Part shown: positions 26,568 to 38,148 of the stretch, one piece after another
Layout: each line of letters begins with the position of its first letter
Position numbering within the stretch: the stretch's first letter is position 1
Assembly: GCF_900106585.1 (NCBI RefSeq)
Contig: NZ_FNWH01000006.1
Coordinates: 1,332,502-1,396,501, forward strand
Source of the DNA: Acidaminococcus timonensis
GTDB taxonomy: Bacteria; Bacillota; Negativicutes; Acidaminococcales; Acidaminococcaceae
Direction of reading: 5' to 3'
Length of the DNA: 64,000 nucleotides
The notes under the pieces: generated by a model
What the model saw: the letters and a program-made list of their open reading frames with translations, nothing else
Database searches by the model: none
What the model was told of the DNA's origin: nothing
Made by a program: the position numbers and the translations under genes

Positions 26568-28106
26568 ATGCAACCTGTAGACGTAGGGATCCTGTCCCTC
26601 CTTCCCCCCATCATTGCCATATCCCTGGCACTCATTACCAAAGAAGTCATTTCCTCCCTGATGCTGGGCATCCTGTCCGGCGGCCTGATCTACGCCGCAG
26701 CCAGCGGTGGCGGTCTGGTGGCCATGAGCCTGTCCGCTTTCGAAATCATGGCCAAGACCGTAGGCACCCCGGATAAGTTCAACATCATCCTGTTCCTGGC
26801 CCTCCTGGGTTCCCTGGTAGCCGTGGTGAACAAGGCCGGCGGTTCCCGGGCCTATGGCCAGTGGGCCACCCGGAAGATCCGGAACAAGCGGGCCGCCGAG
26901 CTGGCTACCAGCGTGCTGGGGATGCTGATTTTCATCGACGATTATTTCAATTGCCTCACCGTGGGGACCGTCATGAAACCGGTCACAGACAAGTACCGGG
27001 TGTCCCGGGCCAAACTGGCCTATATCATCGATACCACTGCCGCCCCGGTGTGCATCATTGCTCCCGTTTCCAGCTGGGCCGCCGCCGTCGGCTCCACCCT
27101 GTACGAAACCGGAGCCTTTCCCAACGAAATGGCCGCCTTCCTGGCCACCATCCCCTACAATATGTACGCCATCCTGAGCATCCTGATCGTACTGGTGCTT
27201 TCCTTCAGCGACCTGGAATTCGGCCCCATGGCGGACGCGGAATACAAAGCGGAGACCACCGGTGAACTGGGCTCCATCGATAAAAAATTCGAGAAAGAGG
27301 AAGCCGCCGTCACCAGCAGGGGGACGGTCTGGGACCTGCTGATCCCCATCGGTGCCCTGATCGTTTTCACCATCCTGGCCATGCTGTACACCGGTGGATA
27401 CTGGGAAAAGGGCCTGACCTTCCAGGAAGCCATCGGCGCCAGCAACTCCTCGGCTTCCCTGGTGCTGGGCAGCTTCTGGGCCCTGATTGTGGCCTTTGTC
27501 CTGTTCCTGCCCCGGAAACTGCTGACCTTCAGAGAATTCATGGACAGCATCGGTACCGGCATCAACACCATGGTGCCGGCCTACATCATCCTGACCCTGG
27601 CCTGGACCATCGGCACCCTGTGCCAGAAGTACCTGGGCACCGGTCACTACATCGGCATGCTGGTGCAGACCAGCAACCTGCCCATGGAACTGCTGCCGGC
27701 CATTGTCTTCCTGGTGGCCGCCGGGCTTTCCTTCTCCATCGGTACGGCCTGGGGGACCTTCGGACTGTTCATCCCCATCGTGGTGTTCATCTGCCAGAAT
27801 GCCACGCCGGAAATCATGACGGTGACCCTGTCCGCCACTCTGGCCGGGGCCGTGTTCGGGGATCACTGTTCCCCCATTTCGGATACCACCATCCTGTCTT
27901 CCTCCGGGGCCGGATGCAACCACATGCAGCACGTCAGTACCCAGATTCCCTACGCCTGCCTGGTGGCAGCCTGCTGTTTCGTCAGCTACCTGGTGGCAGG
28001 GTTCAGCGGCGGCAGCGCCCTGTTGACGGTGCTCAGCGGCATCATCCTGCTGATGGGGGCCCTGCTGGTATTGCACAAGAGAGCGCGGGCAAGATTGAGT
28101 CATTAA
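26568..28106 (+). CDS. NhaC-family Na+/H+ antiporter-like transporter
   Basis: The 512-residue membrane protein has about 11-12 spans and typical NhaC-family blocks: ALLGSLVAVVNKAGG, LIFIDDYFNCLTVGTVMKPVTD, DTTAAPVCIIAPVSSWAA and FGDHCSPISDTTILSSSGAGCNH. The family exchanges Na+ for protons or, in some members, organic ions or amino acids, so the cargo is not certain. AAAGGAGA precedes the ATG by 6 bases. A strong terminator follows. Confidence 0.9.
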   Translation: MQPVDVGILSLLPPIIAISLALITKEVISSLMLGILSGGLIYAAASGGGLVAMSLSAFEIMAKTVGTPDKFNIILFLALLGSLVAVVNKAGGSRAYGQWATRKIRNKRAAELATSVLGMLIFIDDYFNCLTVGTVMKPVTDKYRVSRAKLAYIIDTTAAPVCIIAPVSSWAAAVGSTLYETGAFPNEMAAFLATIPYNMYAILSILIVLVLSFSDLEFGPMADAEYKAETTGELGSIDKKFEKEEAAVTSRGTVWDLLIPIGALIVFTILAMLYTGGYWEKGLTFQEAIGASNSSASLVLGSFWALIVAFVLFLPRKLLTFREFMDSIGTGINTMVPAYIILTLAWTIGTLCQKYLGTGHYIGMLVQTSNLPMELLPAIVFLVAAGLSFSIGTAWGTFGLFIPIVVFICQNATPEIMTVTLSATLAGAVFGDHCSPISDTTILSSSGAGCNHMQHVSTQIPYACLVAACCFVSYLVAGFSGGSALLTVLSGIILLMGALLVLHKRARARLSH

Positions 28107-28140
28107 AAAAGTGGTGTCGCAGCTGCGGCACCACTTTTTT
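28105..28140 (+). terminator. Terminator of the NhaC-type gene
   Basis: AAAAAAGTGGTGtCGCAG pairs with CTGCGgCACCACTTTTTT, directly after the stop codon. Confidence 0.85.
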
Positions 28141-28191
28141 GGTGGTTAGTGGGTAGTGATTAGTGGTTAGTGGCCAGTGGAACAAGGAAAT

Positions 28192-28223
28192 ACAGGGAGG
28201 GCGCAAGGTTGCGTCCTCCCTGT
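28192..28223 (-). terminator. Terminator of the last universal stress gene
   Basis: ACAGGGAGGgCGCAA pairs with TTGCGtCCTCCCTGT with one mismatch; the minus-strand tail TATTTCC is a weak T run. Confidence 0.6.
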
Positions 28224-28225
28224 TT

Positions 28226-28660
28226 TCATTTCACAATGGTCACCGGGCAATGGGCACTTTGGGATACTTTGGTGCTTACGCTGCCCAGGAAGAACCCGGC
28301 CAGCACACCCATGCCCCGGTTGCCCATGACAATCAGGTCCACATCGTCCTTTTCGGCCTCGGCGCAGATCCGTTCAGCCGGATCGATATCCACCACTTTC
28401 TTGAATTTGATCGCAGTGTAAGAGGCTTTGTCGGCCACCCGCTTGGCTTCTTCCACCGGTGTGGGTACCACCACTTCCGGCGGGACAATATTGCCATTCT
28501 TGTCCTTGTGAGGAGGTTTGATGCGGCTCAGATCATAGGGCACATCGATGTTGACCACCAGGATCTGAGAATCGAATTTGCGTCCGATTTCCATGGCGAA
28601 TTCCAACGCCCGCAGGGCAATCTTCGAACCATCCACCGGTACCAGAATTTTGTTGATCAT
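28226..28660 (-). CDS. Universal stress protein, paralogue 4
   Basis: 144 residues with the UspA fold: NKILVPVDGSKIALRALEFAMEIG at the N terminus and the ATP-binding motif GNRGMGVLAGFFLGSVS (G-x2-G-x9-G-S) near the C terminus. It is the most divergent of the four copies here, with an insertion rich in Pro and charged residues (IKPPHKDKNGNIVPPEVVVP). GGAGG lies upstream of the ATG. Confidence 0.93.
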   Translation of the reverse strand: MINKILVPVDGSKIALRALEFAMEIGRKFDSQILVVNIDVPYDLSRIKPPHKDKNGNIVPPEVVVPTPVEEAKRVADKASYTAIKFKKVVDIDPAERICAEAEKDDVDLIVMGNRGMGVLAGFFLGSVSTKVSQSAHCPVTIVK

Positions 28661-28696
28661 ACGCTTTCCTCCTTACTTCCAGAAATCCGTTTCCTG

Positions 28697-29134
28697 TTAT
28701 TTTACAATCAGTACAGGAACATCGGCGTATTGGGACACCTTGCTGCTGACACTGCCCAGGAAGAATTCCGCAATGCCGCTCAGGCCCCGGCTGCCGATGA
28801 CGATGGCAGTGCATTTCTTTTCCTTGCACACGGCCAGCACCCGTTCAGAAGGATGGCCCACTTCCAGGTCAAAATCTTTCTTGCCCTTGAAGTCCTTCAG
28901 TTTTTCCCGTGCGGTATCCAGCACTCCATTGCCGATTTTTGTCAGTTCGTTGTTGCCCTGGTTGATGGTTGCCTGATCCAGAGGAACCACCAGCATGGCC
29001 GAATTGTTGTAGGGCTGGATCACGTTGATGACCAACAATTCACCATTGAACGCTTCTGCCAGTTCCCTGGCTTCTGCCAACGCCCGCCAGGACGTTTCAG
29101 ACCCGTCCACCGGTACCAAGATTTTTTCAAACAT
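28697..29134 (-). CDS. Universal stress protein, paralogue 3
   Basis: 145 residues; FEKILVPVDGSETSWRALAEA at the start and GSRGLSGIAEFFLGSVSSKV near the end, the nucleotide-binding G-x2-G-x9-G-S motif. It closely resembles the two copies upstream. It is separated from them by a terminator, and from paralogue 4 by 36 bases. Confidence 0.93.
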   Translation of the reverse strand: MFEKILVPVDGSETSWRALAEARELAEAFNGELLVINVIQPYNNSAMLVVPLDQATINQGNNELTKIGNGVLDTAREKLKDFKGKKDFDLEVGHPSERVLAVCKEKKCTAIVIGSRGLSGIAEFFLGSVSSKVSQYADVPVLIVK

Positions 29135-29229
29135 ACAATCACCTCCAGGGGATGCTTTACAGTATTCTCCTTCTTATTTCTATTATTCGCCAATGGACTG
29201 TAAAATCCTGCTAGAATTTCAAAAAAAAT

Positions 29230-29265
29230 GAAAAGGGGAAGTGAACTGCATCACCTCCCCTTTTC
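29230..29265 (-). terminator. Terminator between universal stress genes 2 and 3
   Basis: GAAAAGGGGAaGTGA pairs with TCACcTCCCCTTTTC and is followed by CATTTTTTTT on the minus strand. Confidence 0.8.
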
Positions 29266-29266
29266 G

Positions 29267-29704
29267 TCATTTCACCACGACCACCGGTACCTTGGCGTAT
29301 TGGGACACCTTGCTGCTGACACTGCCCAGCAGGAATTCTTCCACGCCGCTCAGGCCCCGGCTGCCAATGACGATGGTATCGCACTTCTCTGCCTTGCACA
29401 GATCCAGGATCTGCTCGGCCGGGTTGCCGATTTCCTCTTTGTATTCCACTGCACCCTTGTACCCAGCCAGTTTCTCTTTGGCCATATCCAGGGTGGCGTA
29501 GCCTGCCTTCTTCATGGCGGCATTATTCTGGTCGATCAGGGTCTGGTCCAGGGACATCTGCAGCAGATTGCCTGCCCCATAGGGAACCATCACGTTGGTC
29601 ACCAGCAAACTGCCCCCGTACTTTTCAGCCAGGGACTCAGCGGTTTCCAGGGCCTTCCAGGACGTTTCAGACCCATCCACCGGAACCAAGATCTTTTGGA
29701 ACAT
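29267..29704 (-). CDS. Universal stress protein, paralogue 2
   Basis: 145 residues; FQKILVPVDGSETSWKALETA and GSRGLSGVEEFLLGSVSSKV. It follows paralogue 1 by 27 bases and is followed by a terminator, so these two form one transcript. AAAGGGGGAG precedes the ATG. Confidence 0.93.
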   Translation of the reverse strand: MFQKILVPVDGSETSWKALETAESLAEKYGGSLLVTNVMVPYGAGNLLQMSLDQTLIDQNNAAMKKAGYATLDMAKEKLAGYKGAVEYKEEIGNPAEQILDLCKAEKCDTIVIGSRGLSGVEEFLLGSVSSKVSQYAKVPVVVVK

Positions 29705-29731
29705 ATCATCACTCCCCCTTTGGAATGTACA

Positions 29732-30175
29732 CTATTTCACAATGAACACAGGGATTTCAGCGTACTGGGACACTTTGCTGCTGACACTGCCCAGGAAGAA
29801 TTCCGCAATGCCGCTCAGGCCCCGGCTTCCCATGACAATGGCATCACAGTTGTCCTTTTTGGCCTTTTTCAGGATCAGTTTGGCCGGATTGCCATCCATT
29901 TCCACATACTCGGCCTTGCCGGTGAATCCATACTCTTTGACTTTCCCTTTGGCAGCTTCCAGCACACCCATACTGGCTTTTTTCATTTCTCCCAGGTTGC
30001 TGGCCATGATTTTAGGGTCAAGGTTCATGGACATGGAACCGATGGCATCATAAGGTTCCATCACTGTCATGACCAACAGTTCTCCATCAAACTTTTCCGC
30101 CAGCACAGCAGCCGTTTTCAAGGCTTTCCAGGCTGTATTGGAGCCATCCACCGGTACTAAGATTTTCTGGAACAT
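29732..30175 (-). CDS. Universal stress protein, paralogue 1
   Basis: 147 residues from the ATG at 30175 (GGAGGG about 10 bases upstream): FQKILVPVDGSNTAWKALKTA and GSRGLSGIAEFFLGSVSSKV. The frame is open for another 80 codons upstream, but those residues overlap the next gene and are not family-like. It follows the small membrane protein gene by 67 bases. Confidence 0.93.
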   Translation of the reverse strand: MFQKILVPVDGSNTAWKALKTAAVLAEKFDGELLVMTVMEPYDAIGSMSMNLDPKIMASNLGEMKKASMGVLEAAKGKVKEYGFTGKAEYVEMDGNPAKLILKKAKKDNCDAIVMGSRGLSGIAEFFLGSVSSKVSQYAEIPVFIVK

Positions 30176-30242
30176 GATATCATCCCTCCTCCATATTCCT
30201 TTCTTTATGGAACTTATTCGCTTTCGGAGGGAAAATCCCTTT

Positions 30243-30614
30243 TTATTTTTTCGATTTTTTTGAATGGCGTCCCGTTTCCTGTTTCTGGTGGTGCCGGGCT
30301 GCCTTATGGGCGCTCTCCTGCCGGCCATTCTGCTTCCGGGCCAGTTCCATGGGCGTGGGCGCCGGCTCAGCGTACTTGAATCTGGCATAGAGCAGCATCC
30401 CGGCCACGGCCACAATGGGCAGGGCCCCCAGGATCGGCCGGGCCATGCCGTTACGGGTAATCACCAGGAAGTTCCACCCCACCACCGCAAGGGGCGTAAT
30501 GATCCACTGGGCCACCTTGGACCCGTTGAAGAATTTCAGCGTCAGGCCATAGCACAGGATGACCACGCAGAAAGAAATAACAGAAAGCAACAGGACAAAA
30601 ATGAAAAATGCCAT
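30243..30614 (-). CDS. Small membrane protein, unknown
   Basis: 123 residues with three predicted membrane segments: FFIFVLLLSVISFCVVILCYG, WIITPLAVVGWNFLVI, and ILGALPIVAVAGMLLYA. A basic cytoplasmic tail (KQNGRQESAHKAARHHQKQE) follows. I recognise no family. It lies 65 bases after the large zinc-ribbon gene in the same direction, with no clear terminator between, so it may be co-transcribed with it. Confidence 0.6.
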   Translation of the reverse strand: MAFFIFVLLLSVISFCVVILCYGLTLKFFNGSKVAQWIITPLAVVGWNFLVITRNGMARPILGALPIVAVAGMLLYARFKYAEPAPTPMELARKQNGRQESAHKAARHHQKQETGRHSKKSKK

Positions 30615-30679
30615 ATCACCATACCCTTTCTACTACATTCCCAGTCAGCAACACAGACTTCTTTGTCCGGTGCTGCCTC

Positions 30680-33600
30680 CTATTTCTTAACGATTTCATT
30701 AAAGAACTGGACAAACAGCGTCTGTTCGTCGCTGGGAGGCATATTTGCAATCTCCACATCCTGGGGCATCAGGATCACTTTGCTGTCCGTCATCCCTTTG
30801 GCAGGAATGATTTCCCCACATTCCTCCAGGGCAAAGCTCCCCGTCGGGGCAACCAGCCGGTCCGCCGTCAGCAGGAAGCCTTCTTTGGCACTGCCGAACA
30901 AGGTACAGTCACAGAGCACCAGTACATCTTCCGGCCGGATTCCGCCCCGGGTCCCATAGCTTGCCATGGCGTTCCGCAATTTTTTCTCCGGAATATGGGG
31001 CGTGCAGCGGAAATAGTACGGGGTGGAAATTTTTTCCTGGAATTCCCGGCAGAAAGCCAGGATCGCCTCCCTGTGGTCCTTCCCTGGAGGGTTTTTCCCC
31101 TGCCCTTCTGCGGGGCTGGCTTCCGGAACTCCCTGAGACTCCAGCGGATTGCCGCATTGGTCACAGAATCGTGCCCCTGGCTTGACGGGAGCCCCGCACC
31201 GGGAGCATACCCGTTTCTCCTCCGATCCTGGAACCGGCCGGGCTGCAGGTGGTTCTTCCCGCGGGGCAGAAGGCTCCGCTGCTTCCTGTTTTTCCGGATG
31301 GGGCAGCAGGACGATTTCATTGAACAGACTGCAGAAATCCTCATCTCCCAGGTCCTGGGTCTTGAAGTGAGCCAGTACCGTACCGGAAGCAGCTTCCACC
31401 AAGGCGTTGTTCTCGTACTCCACCGGTCCCATCTGATCCAGAGAGATCCGGATTCCCCGGGAGCTGACCAGCTGTCCGTTGCGGGTGATCAGGAATCCCT
31501 GTTCGCCCTTCCCCCACAGGACAGAATGGGTGGAATCGCAGAGGAGCACCACCTGGTCCCGCTGGACGCCGCCGCTGCTCCCATAGGCCTGCATGGCATT
31601 GTCCAGGGGACCGGAAAGCCGATTTCCCACATAATAAAAAGGAAATTCTTCCTGGTCCTGTTCGACTTTTTCCGTCAGGCAGGCCACCCGATCTGCCAGA
31701 GGCACCCGGGCTTTCCGATCATTCCATTCTTCCTGGACAGCATCCGGCTGCCGGGACGCCCGGATGGCCTTCCGATAACAATCCAGAGCCTTCCCCAAAT
31801 CGTATGTTTCCTTTTGCGGATCCACCCGGAGCCGAGCCGCCTGGAGCCGTGCGTCCTGGCTGTCCAGCGCCATGGATTCCTCGTAAAAGGCCAGGGCTTC
31901 CTGATCCCGGCCCTGCTGCTCCCTTTCTTTGCCAAGGGCCAGCGCCAGGTCCCTGACTTTTTCCATGGCCCCATCCTGTTCCTGTGCCTGGGCCTTCCGG
32001 TAATATTCCAGAGCCAGCATTCTGTCTTGGAAGGCCTGATTCCCAGTTCCATTCCCGGCTTTTTCTTCTGCCTGCTGTCCCAGGGAAAAGGCCAGTTCCC
32101 CCAGATTCTTCCTGGCATCTTCACAACCGTATTCCACGGCTTTCTCATACCATTCCAGGGCTTTTCCAGCATCTTTTTCCGCGCCTTCTCCCTGGCTGAC
32201 CATCCATCCCAGACGGAGACAGGCTGTTCCGTCTTTTTCTTCTGCCAGCTTTCGGTACCAGGCGATGGCTTCGGTATAGTTCTCGCTGATTTCCAGATCC
32301 CTGACCGCTTCCGCCGCCAGTTTCAGGAAGACCCGGCTCTGTTCCGGCCTGACTGCCTTCAGCATCTGGTACACCTGCCAGGCGGCTTCCTTTTTTCCCA
32401 GCACGGCAGCTTCCACAAAAGCCCATTCCGCCGCTGCTTCCTGCTTCTGTTCCTGATGGAGCAGGCCGGCCTGATAGGCGGCTTCCCCGCTTCCCCATTC
32501 CCGGGCAGCCGTAAAAGCCGCCAGGGCTTTCTCTTTTTCCCCGGCCTCCAAGGCTTTTTGGGCTGCCTGCAGTTTTTCTGTCTGTTCCTTTTCTGCCCAA
32601 TCCCCGGCTTCCCCGGCAAAATCCACCAGATGGAAATGGACGTCCTGGCCGGCCCAATCGGTCTTTTCCGGCTGTTCCAGCTCCAGGACTGCACAGCTCT
32701 TTTCCATGCCCCAGAAATTGATGTGTTCCGCCCAGGAAGGAATCCAGTAATGATCCGGGGTCCCCATCAGTGCGATATCCACCCTTCCGTCCTGGTTTTG
32801 ATCGAAATCTCCCGGGTCTTCACGGAGGAGGATCAGCGTAGCTTCCAGCATGCCGGGACCATAGACGGGATACACATGCAGAGGAAGATTTTGGGGCATC
32901 CAATCCGGGACCTTGAACTTTTTCACGATTTCCCGGTTGTCGATATATTCGTCCCGGATCCGGCGGGCCAGAGACAGTTCATACCCCTCTGCCGCCGCCA
33001 TCTGGAACACATCCCTGGCTGCTTCCGGATCCAGGAGGATCATCTGTTCATAGACAGGCAGCGAATTCCCTGTGATTTCCAGACAACGGCAGAAGCCCTC
33101 CATCATCTCTTCCTGGGTGATTTTTCCCCCTGCGAACCGTTCCAGCAGATTTTTCCGCCGGCTGTCCGCCTTGTGGGTATCAAAGTGGGTGGCCGGGACA
33201 CTGCCCTTTTCCACCAGCATTCTGTGGACCAGGGCGAACAGGTCATACCGGCAGATCCCGCTGATGAAATCCCAGGCCATCTCCGGATAATCCCACTGGC
33301 TGATCCGTTCCTTGATGAACCGCTGGAGTCGGGCAGAATACGAATTGCCGGTGAGGGTCCGTCCCAGAGAGCTGAGTGCGTCCTGGGCCGTATTGAGCAT
33401 CTGGGCTTTGATGGCTCCCTTGATAGCCCCGGTGATCCCGAAGCCCCCGCCCTGCCAGTTGGCTTTATTGGCCTGAGCTTCCACCGCCAGCTCCTGCTGG
33501 TATGCCTGGATGGCTTCCTGGTCCTCCTGCATGGCATGGACCAGATCCGTTTTTCCCATGGTCTCTACCAGCTTGTCACGGAGATCGTCTTTGGTGACAT

Positions 33601-34093
33601 AATCAATGCCATATTCCAGGAGCAGATCCACGGCTTTTTCAAAAAACGGATCACAGGCCGCCATACAGTACTGCAGCACCCGGGAAGAAAACTCCACCGG
33701 ATTGTCCACTTCATGTTCCTTCAGGTGGTTGCTCAGTTCCTCCTGGGCCCGATCGGCCGCCCGCAGCCCTTCCCGGTTAAAAGGCGCCCACAGCTGGTTG
33801 TACAGCGCCGTGGCCCGGGGGAGTTCCACCTGGTACGTCCCCAGCACCGTGAAATGGCTGCCGGGCACTTCCTGGTCTGCCGCCGGCAGGGCATTTTCTG
33901 CAGCTGCAGGCGCTTCCTCCGGAACTGCAGGTTCCACGGGAACAGCGCTTTGCGAAGCAGCAGGAGCCGATGGCTCCGGGCTTTCCGGGGCGGCCGCGCC
34001 CTCCGGTCCCAAGCCTTCCGGGATCTTCGCTCCGCAGTTATAACAGAATTTGGCGTTATCCGGCAGTTTGGTGCCGCAGTTCATACAAAACAT
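30680..34093 (-). CDS. Large zinc-ribbon/Sel1-repeat mosaic protein, unknown
   Basis: 1137 residues, no signal peptide or membrane span. In order: a zinc ribbon (C3-x2-C6, C17-x2-C20); a Pro/Ala/Glu-rich linker (about 27-75); a helical region (about 85-400) of no family I know; an EF-hand-like loop D431-x-N-x-D435-G-x-x-D439; Sel1/TPR-like repeats (about 475-790, such as AIAWYRKLAEEKDGTACLRLG and ALEWYEKAVEYGCEDARKNLG); a first copy of a module YY-x-N/C...LxNAMxxYGxxGGxxxxxVLLCD ending LFNEIV (about 830-945); a second zinc ribbon CSRCG...CDQCG (about 960-985); and a second copy of the module to the C terminus (about 1021-1137, ending FFNEIVKK). It follows the zinc-ribbon membrane protein gene by 32 bases, so they form an operon. 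A scaffold or sensor role is conceivable, but no function can be assigned. Confidence 0.8.
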   Translation of the reverse strand: MFCMNCGTKLPDNAKFCYNCGAKIPEGLGPEGAAAPESPEPSAPAASQSAVPVEPAVPEEAPAAAENALPAADQEVPGSHFTVLGTYQVELPRATALYNQLWAPFNREGLRAADRAQEELSNHLKEHEVDNPVEFSSRVLQYCMAACDPFFEKAVDLLLEYGIDYVTKDDLRDKLVETMGKTDLVHAMQEDQEAIQAYQQELAVEAQANKANWQGGGFGITGAIKGAIKAQMLNTAQDALSSLGRTLTGNSYSARLQRFIKERISQWDYPEMAWDFISGICRYDLFALVHRMLVEKGSVPATHFDTHKADSRRKNLLERFAGGKITQEEMMEGFCRCLEITGNSLPVYEQMILLDPEAARDVFQMAAAEGYELSLARRIRDEYIDNREIVKKFKVPDWMPQNLPLHVYPVYGPGMLEATLILLREDPGDFDQNQDGRVDIALMGTPDHYWIPSWAEHINFWGMEKSCAVLELEQPEKTDWAGQDVHFHLVDFAGEAGDWAEKEQTEKLQAAQKALEAGEKEKALAAFTAAREWGSGEAAYQAGLLHQEQKQEAAAEWAFVEAAVLGKKEAAWQVYQMLKAVRPEQSRVFLKLAAEAVRDLEISENYTEAIAWYRKLAEEKDGTACLRLGWMVSQGEGAEKDAGKALEWYEKAVEYGCEDARKNLGELAFSLGQQAEEKAGNGTGNQAFQDRMLALEYYRKAQAQEQDGAMEKVRDLALALGKEREQQGRDQEALAFYEESMALDSQDARLQAARLRVDPQKETYDLGKALDCYRKAIRASRQPDAVQEEWNDRKARVPLADRVACLTEKVEQDQEEFPFYYVGNRLSGPLDNAMQAYGSSGGVQRDQVVLLCDSTHSVLWGKGEQGFLITRNGQLVSSRGIRISLDQMGPVEYENNALVEAASGTVLAHFKTQDLGDEDFCSLFNEIVLLPHPEKQEAAEPSAPREEPPAARPVPGSEEKRVCSRCGAPVKPGARFCDQCGNPLESQGVPEASPAEGQGKNPPGKDHREAILAFCREFQEKISTPYYFRCTPHIPEKKLRNAMASYGTRGGIRPEDVLVLCDCTLFGSAKEGFLLTADRLVAPTGSFALEECGEIIPAKGMTDSKVILMPQDVEIANMPPSDEQTLFVQFFNEIVKK

Positions 34094-34125
34094 GGAATCA
34101 CCCTTTCCTTTTCTGGACAGGAAAC

Positions 34126-34947
34126 TTACAGCGTGATATTGTGGGCGTTGGCATTTTCGTGGAGGGCCTGCATTTCCGTCAGGACCAGATTGGCCAGGTC
34201 CACATGGCGCTGTTCCTTGAGAACATCCTGGTAATGGGAAGGTCGTGCGCCCCGTCCCGTATTCAGCATCCCCGGGACCACCCGGCCCTCTCCGTCGAAA
34301 GAATACTGGGCATAGATGGGGATCACATGGCTGGTCCCATCCCAGTACCCTTCTTTTTCATCCTCTCCGGGCTTCTCGTTGAGGACCCGCATCTGGAAGG
34401 TCACAGGCGGCCGGCTACCGGTACGGTTATCGATGAAGCGGTACAGCTGGGAGGTGGCTTCCACAAACGCCTTCTGGTGATTTTTTTCATCGATGACCAG
34501 AAGACGGCGTCCCTTACCCCCGATCAGGCTCAGGCTGCCCTGGGAATCATGGCCATAGGAGGTGGCCATCACTTTCCCTGAAAGACCTTCCTGATCCATG
34601 ATCTTCTGGACGGCAGCAATGGGATCTTTGGTGTCCTGGATATCCGCCGGCTTTTCCTTCTTTTCCTGATTCGCTTCCTGGGCCGCTATGGCTGCAGCTT
34701 GGGAAGCCTCCCGAGATTTCTGCTGCTGAAGATAAAAAGCGCCTCCTCCCAGGAGAATCAGTACGATGAGTCCGCCTGCCAGGATCCTGTTCCTTGCACC
34801 AGAAGGAGATTTCCCTCCGGCCGGTGCAGAGGTCCGCCCCCCCGCTGCCGTTTTGCTCTTTATTTTCTCAACCTCTTTCCCACAGGAAGGGCAGAACCGA
34901 TTCCCCGGCTCCAAGGCCTTCCCGCAATGAGGACAAAATTTGACCAT
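34126..34947 (-). CDS. Zinc-ribbon membrane protein, unknown
   Basis: 273 residues from the ATG at 34947 (GGGAGG 9 bases upstream; an in-frame TTG three codons earlier is unlikely). It has an N-terminal zinc ribbon (C5-x2-C8, C19-x2-C22), a Lys/Gly/Ser linker, one membrane span (about 54-72, LAGGLIVLILLGGGAFYL), an Ala/Gln/Glu-rich coiled stretch, then a soluble domain outside the membrane (SYGHDSQGSLSLIGGKGRRL, FQMRVLNEKPGEDEKEGYWD) of no known family. The zinc ribbon faces the cytoplasm. It is the first gene of the operon with the 1137-residue protein, which has the same kind of N-terminal ribbon. Confidence 0.75.
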   Translation of the reverse strand: MVKFCPHCGKALEPGNRFCPSCGKEVEKIKSKTAAGGRTSAPAGGKSPSGARNRILAGGLIVLILLGGGAFYLQQQKSREASQAAAIAAQEANQEKKEKPADIQDTKDPIAAVQKIMDQEGLSGKVMATSYGHDSQGSLSLIGGKGRRLLVIDEKNHQKAFVEATSQLYRFIDNRTGSRPPVTFQMRVLNEKPGEDEKEGYWDGTSHVIPIYAQYSFDGEGRVVPGMLNTGRGARPSHYQDVLKEQRHVDLANLVLTEMQALHENANAHNITL

Positions 34948-34979
34948 CTTTTCCAACCTCCCATCATCGATTCCTGTTT

Positions 34980-34988
34980 ATTATAGCA
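34980..34988 (-). promoter_or_regulatory. Extended -10 promoter of the zinc-ribbon operon
   Basis: On the minus strand TGCTATAAT directly follows the poly-T tail of the preceding terminator, about 35 bases before the ATG. The same arrangement occurs at 37119-37127. Confidence 0.55.
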
Positions 34989-35031
34989 AAAAGTCGGGGG
35001 TGTTGCATACAACGTGCAACAACCCCCGACT
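34988..35031 (-). terminator. Terminator of the SLC13-type transporter gene
   Basis: AGTCGGGGGTgTTGCA pairs with TGCAACaACCCCCGACT, with a short loop and a minus-strand TTTTTG tail. Confidence 0.85.
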
Positions 35032-35046
35032 CCATGCTTTTGACTT

Positions 35047-36504
35047 TTATCCCAAAATCAGCGCCCCAATGGGATAACCTACAAAGGTCATGGCCAAAAT
35101 AGCCAGCACCGCGAATACGCCACCCCACACGAACATATCCCGGGCGCTGGTCCAGCCGGACCCGATGGCTACGGTGTTGATGGTGGACTGACCAGCCGGA
35201 GTCATGTTGCAGATCCCTGCGCCGAACCCGATCAGGCACACCACGGCACCCACGGAGATGGTCCCGGCCGGAAGGGCCTGGCACACGGACAGGGCCACAG
35301 CGCTGACCACGGTGGTGGTAACGATGTTGGAAGAGAAATTGGTCTCCAGCACGCACCATGCGAAGAAGAACAGGATCAGTCCCAGGATGGGCAGGCCGCT
35401 GGCCACCGGTGCCAAAAGGCCGCTGAGCCAGGCCTTGATCCCCATTTCGTTATGGGTCAGAGCGGAACCCAGCATGGTGGCGGCACCGGTCATGACGATG
35501 GACGCCCACAGGACCCCTTTGGTCATGACTTCTTTGAAGTCCATGATGGGCTTGCCTTCATGACGGGTGATGAACAGGATGATGCAGCCCAGCAGCGGCG
35601 GCATGGCCGTCGTACACTTGCTGATGGCCTTGTACAGGCCGGGGTGGATGCCCTTCACCAGGCTTGGCCCCACCCACAGCAGGACCACCAGTGCCATGGT
35701 CCCCAGGATGATCCATTCCCGGGCATCCGCCTTGGGTACCATGCCCCGGAGGCTCATGGCCTTCTGGGGATTGATGGTATGGATGTCATCGGGACGATAC
35801 AGGAATTTGAACACCAGCAGCAGAAGCACCACCAGCAGGATCCCGGTGGGGATGCCCATGGCCATGTACTGGAACTGGTTCACATCCCGGCCGGTAGCCG
35901 CCGTATAGTACCCGATGGCCATGGTGGGCCACACGTGGCCGATGGCGGTCATACCGGAGGACAGGCTGATGCAGAAGGCCGTTCCCAGCATGATCATGTT
36001 GGCAGAGGGACTCCCTTTCTTCAGCTCCAGCACCTGGAAGATATCCTCCAGAAAAGGCATGAAGGCCACGAACAGTACAGAGGGCGAGATGAACAGGCCC
36101 ATGAAGGTGACTGCGAAGAACAGGAAGCTGACAAAGGACCAGGGACCCCGCCGGGCAATGGCATTGGTAATGAAGGTCACGGTGCAGCGCCGGACAAAGT
36201 GGGTCTTGGACAGGGGGTATACCAGCATGAAAGTAAACAGCAGGAAAGCCACAGTGGTATTCCCGAAGGTCCCTTTCAGCGTACCCGCAAAACCGAAATG
36301 GGGCAAAAAGCCCAGCAGGAAAATGGTGATCAGGCTGGGCCAGTCGATGGAAATGGTGATCCACATGAGCAGGGAGCTGAGGAAGATGCCCAGCACCGCC
36401 AGCCCTTCCGGAGTCAGGGGAGATGGTGCCGGAAAGAGGCGCACAGCGAATCCGGCCGCCAGAGAGATCACCAGCCAGAGCCAATCTTTCGTGGATTTGC
36501 TCAT
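35047..36504 (-). CDS. Na+-coupled anion symporter (SLC13/DASS type)
   Basis: The 485-residue membrane protein has about 11-12 spans and resembles the divalent anion:Na+ symporters (di- and tricarboxylates, sulfate): SPLTPEGLAVLGIFLSSLLMW near the start, SANMIMLGTAFCISLSSGMTAIGH in the middle, and ETNFSSNIVTTTVVSAV, with the SNTxT-like substrate-site motif in variant form. It starts 9 bases after the chorismate mutase-ACT gene and is on the same transcript. The substrate is not readable from sequence. Confidence 0.85.
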   Translation of the reverse strand: MSKSTKDWLWLVISLAAGFAVRLFPAPSPLTPEGLAVLGIFLSSLLMWITISIDWPSLITIFLLGFLPHFGFAGTLKGTFGNTTVAFLLFTFMLVYPLSKTHFVRRCTVTFITNAIARRGPWSFVSFLFFAVTFMGLFISPSVLFVAFMPFLEDIFQVLELKKGSPSANMIMLGTAFCISLSSGMTAIGHVWPTMAIGYYTAATGRDVNQFQYMAMGIPTGILLVVLLLLVFKFLYRPDDIHTINPQKAMSLRGMVPKADAREWIILGTMALVVLLWVGPSLVKGIHPGLYKAISKCTTAMPPLLGCIILFITRHEGKPIMDFKEVMTKGVLWASIVMTGAATMLGSALTHNEMGIKAWLSGLLAPVASGLPILGLILFFFAWCVLETNFSSNIVTTTVVSAVALSVCQALPAGTISVGAVVCLIGFGAGICNMTPAGQSTINTVAIGSGWTSARDMFVWGGVFAVLAILAMTFVGYPIGALILG

Positions 36505-36513
36505 GGCCGCCCC

Positions 36514-37080
36514 TTACTCACAGGCCAGGATCTTAAAGTCCTGGCTTTCTTTGGACAGCTGGAACATGAGCTTCTGCATGTTGGTTTCGCTGAGATTGCC
36601 CAGAATGGTCAGGTCGAAGGTGACCGTCTTCTCGGGCCGGTTGAAACTCAGGAGCTGCATATACTGCATGTTGTAGCCGTAATCCCCCACCATATTCAGG
36701 ATGCTGCTCATGGCATTGGGCTGATCCGGACGGGTCATGCGCACCACCACTTTGGTCCCGTCGGCTTTGATCTGGATATCCCTGGCCAGGTCAGCGAACA
36801 GCTGGGGATTCCAGTCGAACAGCATGCCGTACTGGTACATGCGGCTGGTTTCCATGATCTTGCGCACCACGGCCAGGTATTCGGGCTTGCGGTCCTCCGG
36901 CACACCCTGGCTCAGGCGCTGCAGGATGGCCTGTTCCCGGTCGGCCCGGTAGATATTGGTTTCGCCGGCGGCCTGTTTGGCCTCAGCCACCAGTTTGGAG
37001 CAGTCCATCCGTTCCATCAGCAGCTGCCGCAGCTGGGGATCGATGGCATCGATTTTTTTGCGTACGTCTTCCAGTTTCAT
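36514..37080 (-). CDS. Chorismate mutase (AroQ type) with ACT-like domain
   Basis: 188 residues. The first 85 or so form an AroQ chorismate mutase (LEDVRKKIDAIDPQLRQLLMERMDCSKLVAEAKQ, YRADREQAILQRL). The rest is ACT-like (KVVVRMTRPDQPNAMSSILNMVGDYGYNMQYMQLLSF), normally a site for aromatic amino-acid feedback. The prephenate dehydratase domain that usually lies between the two in PheA is absent, so this enzyme should only convert chorismate to prephenate. An AAGGGAAGG site precedes the ATG. It shares an operon with the SLC13-type transporter. Confidence 0.82.
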   Translation of the reverse strand: MKLEDVRKKIDAIDPQLRQLLMERMDCSKLVAEAKQAAGETNIYRADREQAILQRLSQGVPEDRKPEYLAVVRKIMETSRMYQYGMLFDWNPQLFADLARDIQIKADGTKVVVRMTRPDQPNAMSSILNMVGDYGYNMQYMQLLSFNRPEKTVTFDLTILGNLSETNMQKLMFQLSKESQDFKILACE

Positions 37081-37118
37081 AAGAATCCTTCCCTTCTGCT
37101 TTTCTACAAATCTTCCTT

Positions 37119-37127
37119 ATTATAGCA
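37119..37127 (-). promoter_or_regulatory. Extended -10 promoter of the chorismate mutase operon
   Basis: Minus-strand TGCTATAAT follows a T-run that is the tail of the upstream terminator, about 40 bases before the ATG. Compare 34980-34988. Confidence 0.5.
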
Positions 37128-37159
37128 AAAAAAAGCTGTGAAAAAAATATTTCCACAGC
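37128..37159 (-). terminator. Terminator of the radical SAM gene
   Basis: GCTGTG and CACAGC, extended by A/T pairs around an A/T-rich loop, are followed by eight T on the minus strand. Confidence 0.75.
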
Positions 37160-37167
37160 GTTTCCAG

Positions 37168-38148
37168 TTACATGGCGGTACAGGGTTCAGCCTGCAGCAG
37201 CTCTTCCTTTTCCTCTTCGATCTGTTTGGGAGATACCCGCTCCAGCCACTTCAAATCGTAGGGTTCGAATTTGCAGCGGGCATAGGCATCCAGATCCATG
37301 ACCGTACCATCCCAGTCGGAATCGATCCGACCGTTCTGCTTGATCAGGATATCGTACAGGATGGCATATACTTTGCCGTCTTCCGGATCTTTTTCCACAA
37401 TGGTGCTGTACGGCAATGTCTTGTGGTACACCAGTTCCAGGTCCTTGTACCTGAAATGGAACCCGCACCGCATCCGGCAGCCGTCCAGGCCCGTATAGCA
37501 GGCCACCTGTTTCAGATCTTTCAGGATCTGGTCATGGGGCTCGTCATACAGATTCTCCGGGGTGGTCTCCGTGTAATCGAACCGGAACTGGATGGAAGGT
37601 GCATGGACTCGGCGGAACCGTTCCATGAAGGGGATCAGCTGTTCCCGGGGATACTTCTTGTACAGCACGCAGTTGATCCGGAACCGTACCGGCAGTTTGG
37701 CCAGCAGGGCATCGTTGGATTCTTCCACGTAATGCTGCATATGGCGGGAAATGTTCAGGCAGCTGATCTTGTCGGCGTTACGGTCCAGGAACGCCAGCAG
37801 TTCCGCCTCGGTCTGATGGACATTTACCGGCAGGGTGGTGTTGATGTAGATGTGATGGGTGGGCGACACCTTGTCCAGCATCACCTGCAGGCTTTTCAGA
37901 TTGGCCAGAGGCTCACCCCCGGTAAAGACGAAATCACAGTAGGGGGTCATCTTGTCCATGGTCTCAATGCTGTGGCAGATGGCCTCCAGGGAAAAGCCGG
38001 TGGCATCGGCATATTCTTCTTTATTGACACAGAAGGGGCAGTGGTTCTGACAGTCGTACGGCACGAATACCGTAACGGTGGCTCCCCCTGTCCGCGTCTT
38101 ATACGGATGGAACTCCGCTTCCAAGGCAGTTTTTTCTCTCTTGATCAT
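37168..38148 (-). CDS. Radical SAM enzyme of unknown specificity
   Basis: 326 residues from the ATG at 38148 (GAGGGG 6 bases upstream). The iron-sulfur motif is C33-x3-C37-x2-C40 in VPYDCQNHCPFCVN, followed by the SAM-binding FVFTGGEPL. Further Cys residues lie in the C-terminal half (CYTGLDGCRMRCGFHFRYKD), but whether they bind a second cluster is unclear. The plan resembles the MoaA/PqqE-type class. No peptide substrate gene is adjacent. It is divergent from a FliB-like cysteine-cluster gene, 170 bases away. Confidence 0.82.
   Translation of the reverse strand: MIKREKTALEAEFHPYKTRTGGATVTVFVPYDCQNHCPFCVNKEEYADATGFSLEAICHSIETMDKMTPYCDFVFTGGEPLANLKSLQVMLDKVSPTHHIYINTTLPVNVHQTEAELLAFLDRNADKISCLNISRHMQHYVEESNDALLAKLPVRFRINCVLYKKYPREQLIPFMERFRRVHAPSIQFRFDYTETTPENLYDEPHDQILKDLKQVACYTGLDGCRMRCGFHFRYKDLELVYHKTLPYSTIVEKDPEDGKVYAILYDILIKQNGRIDSDWDGTVMDLDAYARCKFEPYDLKWLERVSPKQIEEEKEELLQAEPCTAM

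Follow-up and report, generated by a model that had tools for sequence, protein, structure and literature searches.

P1, an 1137-residue mosaic protein of Acidaminococcus timonensis, seems on balance to be an accessory adaptor protein of the cytosol that probably moves horizontally, rather than one half of a fixed two-gene machine. The neighbouring gene, P2, mostly occurs without P1 and the two probably do not form a dedicated pair; their pairing looks ordinary or at most lineage-specific. On the best reading, P1 sits as an accessory in a row of genes made up of P2 and universal-stress-protein genes, and P2 is an envelope protein in its own right, made up of zinc ribbon, membrane helix and ectodomain and laid out like staphylococcal TcaA. 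A sequence-only reading of this DNA had described two adjacent genes whose products both start with a zinc ribbon, one crossing the membrane and the other large and soluble, and had proposed that they serve a dedicated complex. Its account of the architecture stood up; the dedicated pairing did not, although joint occurrence of the two genes is still above expectation.

Both genes lie on the minus strand of the window, by which we mean the whole stretch of 64,000 nucleotides analysed. The gene order is P2, P1, a gene for a 123-aa hydrophobic protein and then four universal-stress-protein genes. P1 lies downstream of P2 on the same strand after a gap of 32 bases, both in the window and in A. 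massiliensis. To judge from spacing and strand, P1 probably shares a transcript with P2 and with the 123-aa and UspA genes. The features, by position in the window, are:

30243..30614, minus strand: gene for the 123-aa hydrophobic protein
30680..34093, minus strand: P1, 1137-aa mosaic protein without a membrane helix
30683..31057, minus strand: P1 C-terminal module copy 2, residues 1013-1137 (BnzA-N-like, PADLOC PDLC03833)
31142..31216, minus strand: P1 second zinc ribbon, residues 960-984 or thereabouts (PF12773/PF13248)
31289..31651, minus strand: P1 C-terminal module copy 1, residues 815-935 (homologous to copy 2, hence BnzA-N)
31658..32614, minus strand: P1 alpha solenoid of Sel1/TPR-type repeats, residues 494-812 (PF08238, PDB Sel1 chains, fold searches)
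32624..32881, minus strand: P1 small beta-containing stretch, residues 405-490 (AlphaFold2 secondary structure)
32909..33817, minus strand: P1 helical domain, residues 93-395 (AlphaFold2 model and alignments)
33392..33457, minus strand: glycine-rich motif of the P1 helical domain, residues 213-234 (11-sequence alignment)
34025..34090, minus strand: P1 N-terminal zinc ribbon, residues 2-23 (PF13240)
34126..34947, minus strand: P2, 273-aa zinc-ribbon membrane protein, ATG at 34947
34129..34629, minus strand: P2 C-terminal domain, residues 107-273 (conserved in relatives)
34729..34785, minus strand: P2 membrane helix, residues 55-73 (Kyte-Doolittle 2.29)
34873..34938, minus strand: P2 zinc ribbon, residues 4-25 (PF13240)

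An open reading frame longer than P1 (1208 aa, plus strand, 30608-34234) runs over it. We took this frame as antisense and P1 as the real gene, because P1 has full-length relatives in other species and a dN/dS of 0.20. That value, obtained against A. massiliensis, shows that purifying selection acts on P1; three comparisons of P2 gave 0.18-0.23. Genes in the neighbourhoods described below were picked as the longest ORFs, a choice that includes some antisense frames such as the one over P1. The four tandem universal-stress-protein-like genes, whose family name was given by eye, occupy 28226-30175 (minus strand) after the 123-aa gene, and A. massiliensis, G001 and G005 have UspA-like genes at the equivalent position. 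A GC-rich inverted repeat with a T-run, directly followed by TATAAT, was noticed by eye at about 34988-35030 (minus strand), in the gap that separates P2 from the transporter gene upstream; a simple scan did not list the repeat, and an Rfam scan of 28000-37500 gave nothing at the gathering threshold.

The zinc-ribbon family PF13240 (cut-off 25 bits) matched both proteins. P1, which begins MFCMNCG...FCYNCG, scored 59 bits over two stretches of the whole protein, and P2, which begins MVKFCPHCG...FCPSCG, scored 34 bits. In P2 a single 19-residue window, residues 55-73, is strongly hydrophobic (mean Kyte-Doolittle value 2.29), and P2 is the protein that crosses the membrane. The best such window of P1 has a mean of 1.4 and none reaches 1.5, as expected of the large soluble protein first described. 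Its Sel1-like repeats were borne out by a match of 33.1 bits against a Pfam cut-off of 30.7, and Sel1 was listed at E up to 1 in 10 of the 11 aligned P1-type proteins, P1 included. The solenoid at 494-812 is what P1 shares with Sel1-like repeat proteins (PF08238); unlike them, P1 flanks it with a glycine-motif helical domain and C-terminal modules. Further modules had been predicted and are present, although the second zinc ribbon and the duplication of the C-terminal domain had gone unnamed. One P1 relative (L083 6001-9267) has a long low-complexity stretch in place of the Sel1 part and no Sel1 match, while both ends, with the helical domain and both C-terminal modules, are retained.

The AlphaFold2 model of P1, built from 11 sequences, had a mean pLDDT of 80.7 and a pTM of 0.54. 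It gave low confidence to a proline- and alanine-rich linker after the N-terminal ribbon. At the other end of the protein it shows two units, each of seven strands with one helix before and one after them, and the second ribbon lies between these units. Fold searches with P1 say little about the helical domain and the C-terminal modules because solenoids filled the match lists. Neither P1 nor P2 matched any characterised family of Pfam, NCBIfam or PADLOC over its full length, and the PMC literature, judged by titles and the starts of abstracts, yielded nothing on P1 or its C-terminal module.

BnzA belongs to the Bunzi anti-phage system, in which BnzB is its partner. Judged by profile and sequence comparison, the C-terminal module of P1 is homologous to the N-terminus of BnzA, at about profile positions 9-97. 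Compared as a pair of sequences, the two copies in P1 align over 123 columns with 28% identity and E=2e-12. The PADLOC model PDLC03833 (BnzA) matches P1 residues 1027-1081 with E=3e-10, and 10 of the 19 module copies collected match it at E up to 1, the best at 5.4e-12; copy 1 of the window alone gave no PADLOC match. Unlike BnzA, P1 carries two copies of the module at its C-terminus and has zinc ribbons, helical domain and solenoid instead of the remainder of BnzA. P1 covers only positions 19-71 of the 544 in the profile, far short of most of it, and the six-frame match of the BnzA model in the window genome covers positions 19-149. A search with this model found 2 of 199 phylum genomes (the window’s own and G151) and none of 14 control genomes. 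P2, the sole neighbour scanned with the BnzB partner in mind, matched nothing in PADLOC at E up to 1.

The module also occurs in other settings, and hhalign gave a profile-profile probability of 98.8% between it and four proteins of other architecture. These four are a DnaJ protein encoded on a Variovorax plasmid, a protein with GYF_2 and an M48 peptidase, a protein with GYF_2 and a helix-hairpin-helix, and a long BnzA relative, L196, on an Acetobacter plasmid (E=2.6e-83, positions 9-375 of 544). We found the module in 15 of 250 class genomes. Matches to PHROGs were weak, the best at E=0.047. The seven strands and C-terminal helix predicted for each copy resemble the order of a PH domain; hhalign of alignment A10 against six bPH_3 (PF14470) sequences gave 0.9%, which lends that fold no support. 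A weak PDB profile match of the module to the NAD glycohydrolase 4kt6_A (E=0.0086) was gone with a wider profile at E up to 1 and was put down to chance.

The helical domain carries the pattern GGGFG-x2-GA-x2-G-x3-A-x3-N, in which nine columns are invariant and one is nearly so across the 11-sequence alignment. The AlphaFold2 model has pLDDT below 50 at residues 212-230, which cover most of this motif. The glycine-motif region is common to P1 and six other proteins (L182, L183, L184, the 868-aa protein of L072, L267 and L093), and Pfam gave no model for it in any of those six. L182 also resembles P1 in its zinc ribbons, a Sel1 match over the cut-off and one C-terminal module; in four of the six, unlike in P1, a membrane helix lies close to the C-terminus. 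The glycine-motif core was found in 3 of 249 phylum genomes at E up to 0.001. At L072 12634-15240, in genome G006, relatives of P1 and P2 are followed by a gene for a ribbon with a tRNA_anti-like domain and by the gene for the 868-aa glycine-motif protein, whose membrane helix is C-terminal.

TcaA of Staphylococcus aureus is described in an excerpt of PMC10328498 as having a zinc ribbon, one membrane helix and a C-terminal domain. P2 has the same order of parts in its sequence, a zinc ribbon, one membrane helix and a larger C-terminal part, and this last domain would be extracytoplasmic. The layout is a common one and P2 is not TcaA: at 273 aa it scored 17.4 bits against a cut-off of 550 for the TcaA model NF053815, with similarity only over residues 3-95. 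An AlphaFold2 model of P2 came from a two-sequence alignment with a mean pLDDT of 43.7 and was left uninterpreted.

Genome counts for both proteins refer to one genome per species. A family search found a long P1-type match in 9 of 59 genomes (E of 1.4e-100 or lower, the window’s own included) and a full-length P2 in 6 of the 59. Across 250 genomes of the class, the helical domain of P1 was present in 13 (E below 1e-100), with weak matches only in six more, and P2 was matched in 43 at E up to 1e-10. The C-terminal domain is included in 34 of these P2 matches; the other 9 have the ribbon and membrane part only. Plasmid and phage collections held no place covering 80% of P1. The plasmid matches fall within residues 527-788 (best 20 of 32 records), as does the sole phage record, while viral contigs gave short N-terminal matches to P2 (four loci, residues 2-95) and to P1 (one locus, residues 1-55).

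A block of transporter, P2, 123-aa gene and UspA-like genes in G001 (L077) and G005 (L078) is syntenic with the window, and in both genomes the 123-aa gene directly follows P2 with no P1 between. P1 is thus absent from the same site, and was either acquired by the lineage of the window or lost from the other one. Both genomes have P1 relatives elsewhere, far from P2 or on a different contig, which are 35-37% (G005) and, over two parts, 39-40% (G001) identical to the window P1. The G001 relative (L070 5382-9202) is split by a frameshift into two overlapping frames, through either decay or a sequencing error.

The A. massiliensis protein is 84% identical to the window P1, and the nearest P1 found beyond these two closest genomes comes from Mitsuokella and a MAG of another family. 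The window P1 shares 55-57% identity with the proteins of two Mitsuokella species and of a Selenomonadaceae MAG, and 35% with that of A. fermentans. In a midpoint-rooted tree of the helical domain, for which the program warned of the long branches L083 and L086, the window P1 falls in a group with RUG024, Mitsuokella and the Selenomonadaceae MAG that is separated from the A. fermentans clade (support 100/100). Support is 82/78 at the node where the window pair meets Mitsuokella and the MAG, and both P1 clades are present in Acidaminococcus. The tree and the identities together suggest that P1 has probably been transferred horizontally; an ancient duplication with losses could also give this distribution.

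How far these data speak for a dedicated complex, in which the ribbon of P2 at the inner face of the membrane meets the ribbons and solenoid of P1 and relays a signal from the ectodomain to the scaffold, can be judged by how often the genes are found together. Close, same-strand neighbours in the window and A. massiliensis are what a complex would lead one to expect, and in G006 a P1 relative from the other clade adjoins a P2 relative with the order reversed. With 34 P2 and 13 P1 genomes among 250, 5 joint genomes were observed against 1.8 expected (p 0.020), and counting all 43 P2 matches gives 6 against 2.2 (p 0.012), both with kinship ignored. Adjacency in two arrangements, involving two P1 clades, and this excess of joint genomes are compatible with a functional link. 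However, a full-length P2 relative accompanies P1 in only 5 of 13 genomes (G000, G001, G004, G005 and G006), all in the window’s genus, and is absent from the other 8; in G282 a P2 match about 12 kb from P1 has the ribbon and membrane part only. The genes adjoin in 3 of the 13 (P2 then P1 in G000 and G004, P1 then P2 in G006), and of the 34 genomes whose P2 match includes the C-terminal domain, 29 have no P1. The conserved row of G001 and of G005 has P2 without P1, and the window genome holds another adjacent pair of zinc-ribbon genes. A dedicated complex thus seems fairly unlikely. That P1 instead belongs to the row and takes part in a stress response together with the UspA proteins is quite unlikely: four genomes in the genus, counting that of the window, have P2, 123-aa gene and UspA-like genes in synteny, and P1 lies within the row in two of them, but the row is complete without P1 in the other two, G001 and G005, and by eye ten further P1 loci have no such neighbours.

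These ten loci, some of them cut by contig ends, bear on defence as well. Homology of the C-terminal modules to the BnzA N-terminus, patchy spread across families, and the type I restriction system and toxin-antitoxin genes near the Acetobacter plasmid BnzA relative would fit a single-gene anti-phage or stress-defence protein, whose BnzA-N-type modules sense while the rest executes. The ten loci lie, by eye, among housekeeping or unrelated genes with no defence island, a setting that favours a self-sufficient gene over membership of such an island. The module is also fused to DnaJ, to GYF_2 with M48 peptidase and to GYF_2 with helix-hairpin-helix. A TerB domain (PF05099) is tabulated for Bunzi in an excerpt of PMC10952713, but TerB is not among the Pfam matches of P1 at E up to 10, nor found in the Acetobacter relative at E up to 0.1, so its absence from P1 may carry little weight. 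We regard a defence role as improbable. A broader and equally speculative proposal, to which we give only a small chance, is that P1 founds a family of single-gene sensors: the tandem BnzA-N modules would detect a signal of infection or stress and the glycine-motif domain would act on the membrane, being anchored there directly in the membrane-bearing relatives, with BnzA-N a general, as yet unnamed bacterial sensing unit of defence, chaperone and protease proteins.

If P1 is the accessory cytosolic adaptor we favour, its solenoid and zinc ribbons would bind partner proteins, while the helical domain with its glycine-rich motif and the two C-terminal modules would bind a membrane, a ligand or a partner. 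The paired modules and glycine motif may supply a switch or a membrane contact, and P1 could in this way deliver a client to a particular site according to the state of the cell.

The wider interest lies in two regions that the profile scans left without a model. The C-terminal module, for which Pfam and NCBIfam scans found no model, links BnzA, a little-understood anti-phage protein, with DnaJ, M48-peptidase, helix-hairpin-helix and solenoid proteins. The glycine-motif helical domain is the second. Defining both would allow the role of the BnzA N-terminus to be tested in simpler proteins.

Zinc ribbons are not confined to P1 and P2. The window genome has seven zinc-ribbon matches over the cut-off in five ORFs, with three more below it, and four of the five ORFs are arranged as two neighbouring pairs, one being P2/P1 and the other lying on contig C4. 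Among P2 loci other than those of the window and A. massiliensis, a zinc-ribbon ORF distinct from P1 lies near the P2 relative at 8 of 14 (seven of L255-L262, and L072) and was not found near P2 at L262, L268, L269, L077, L078 and L079. Examples include ribbons with a tRNA_anti-like domain (PF12869) and a ribbon with other membrane segments. By eye, the contig C4 pair (L058 1387-2803) encodes zinc-ribbon membrane proteins beside an L,D-transpeptidase-like protein, one with a double ribbon, a membrane helix and a C-terminal domain like that of PF12869 proteins, the other with a ribbon, a membrane helix and an SH3-like end.
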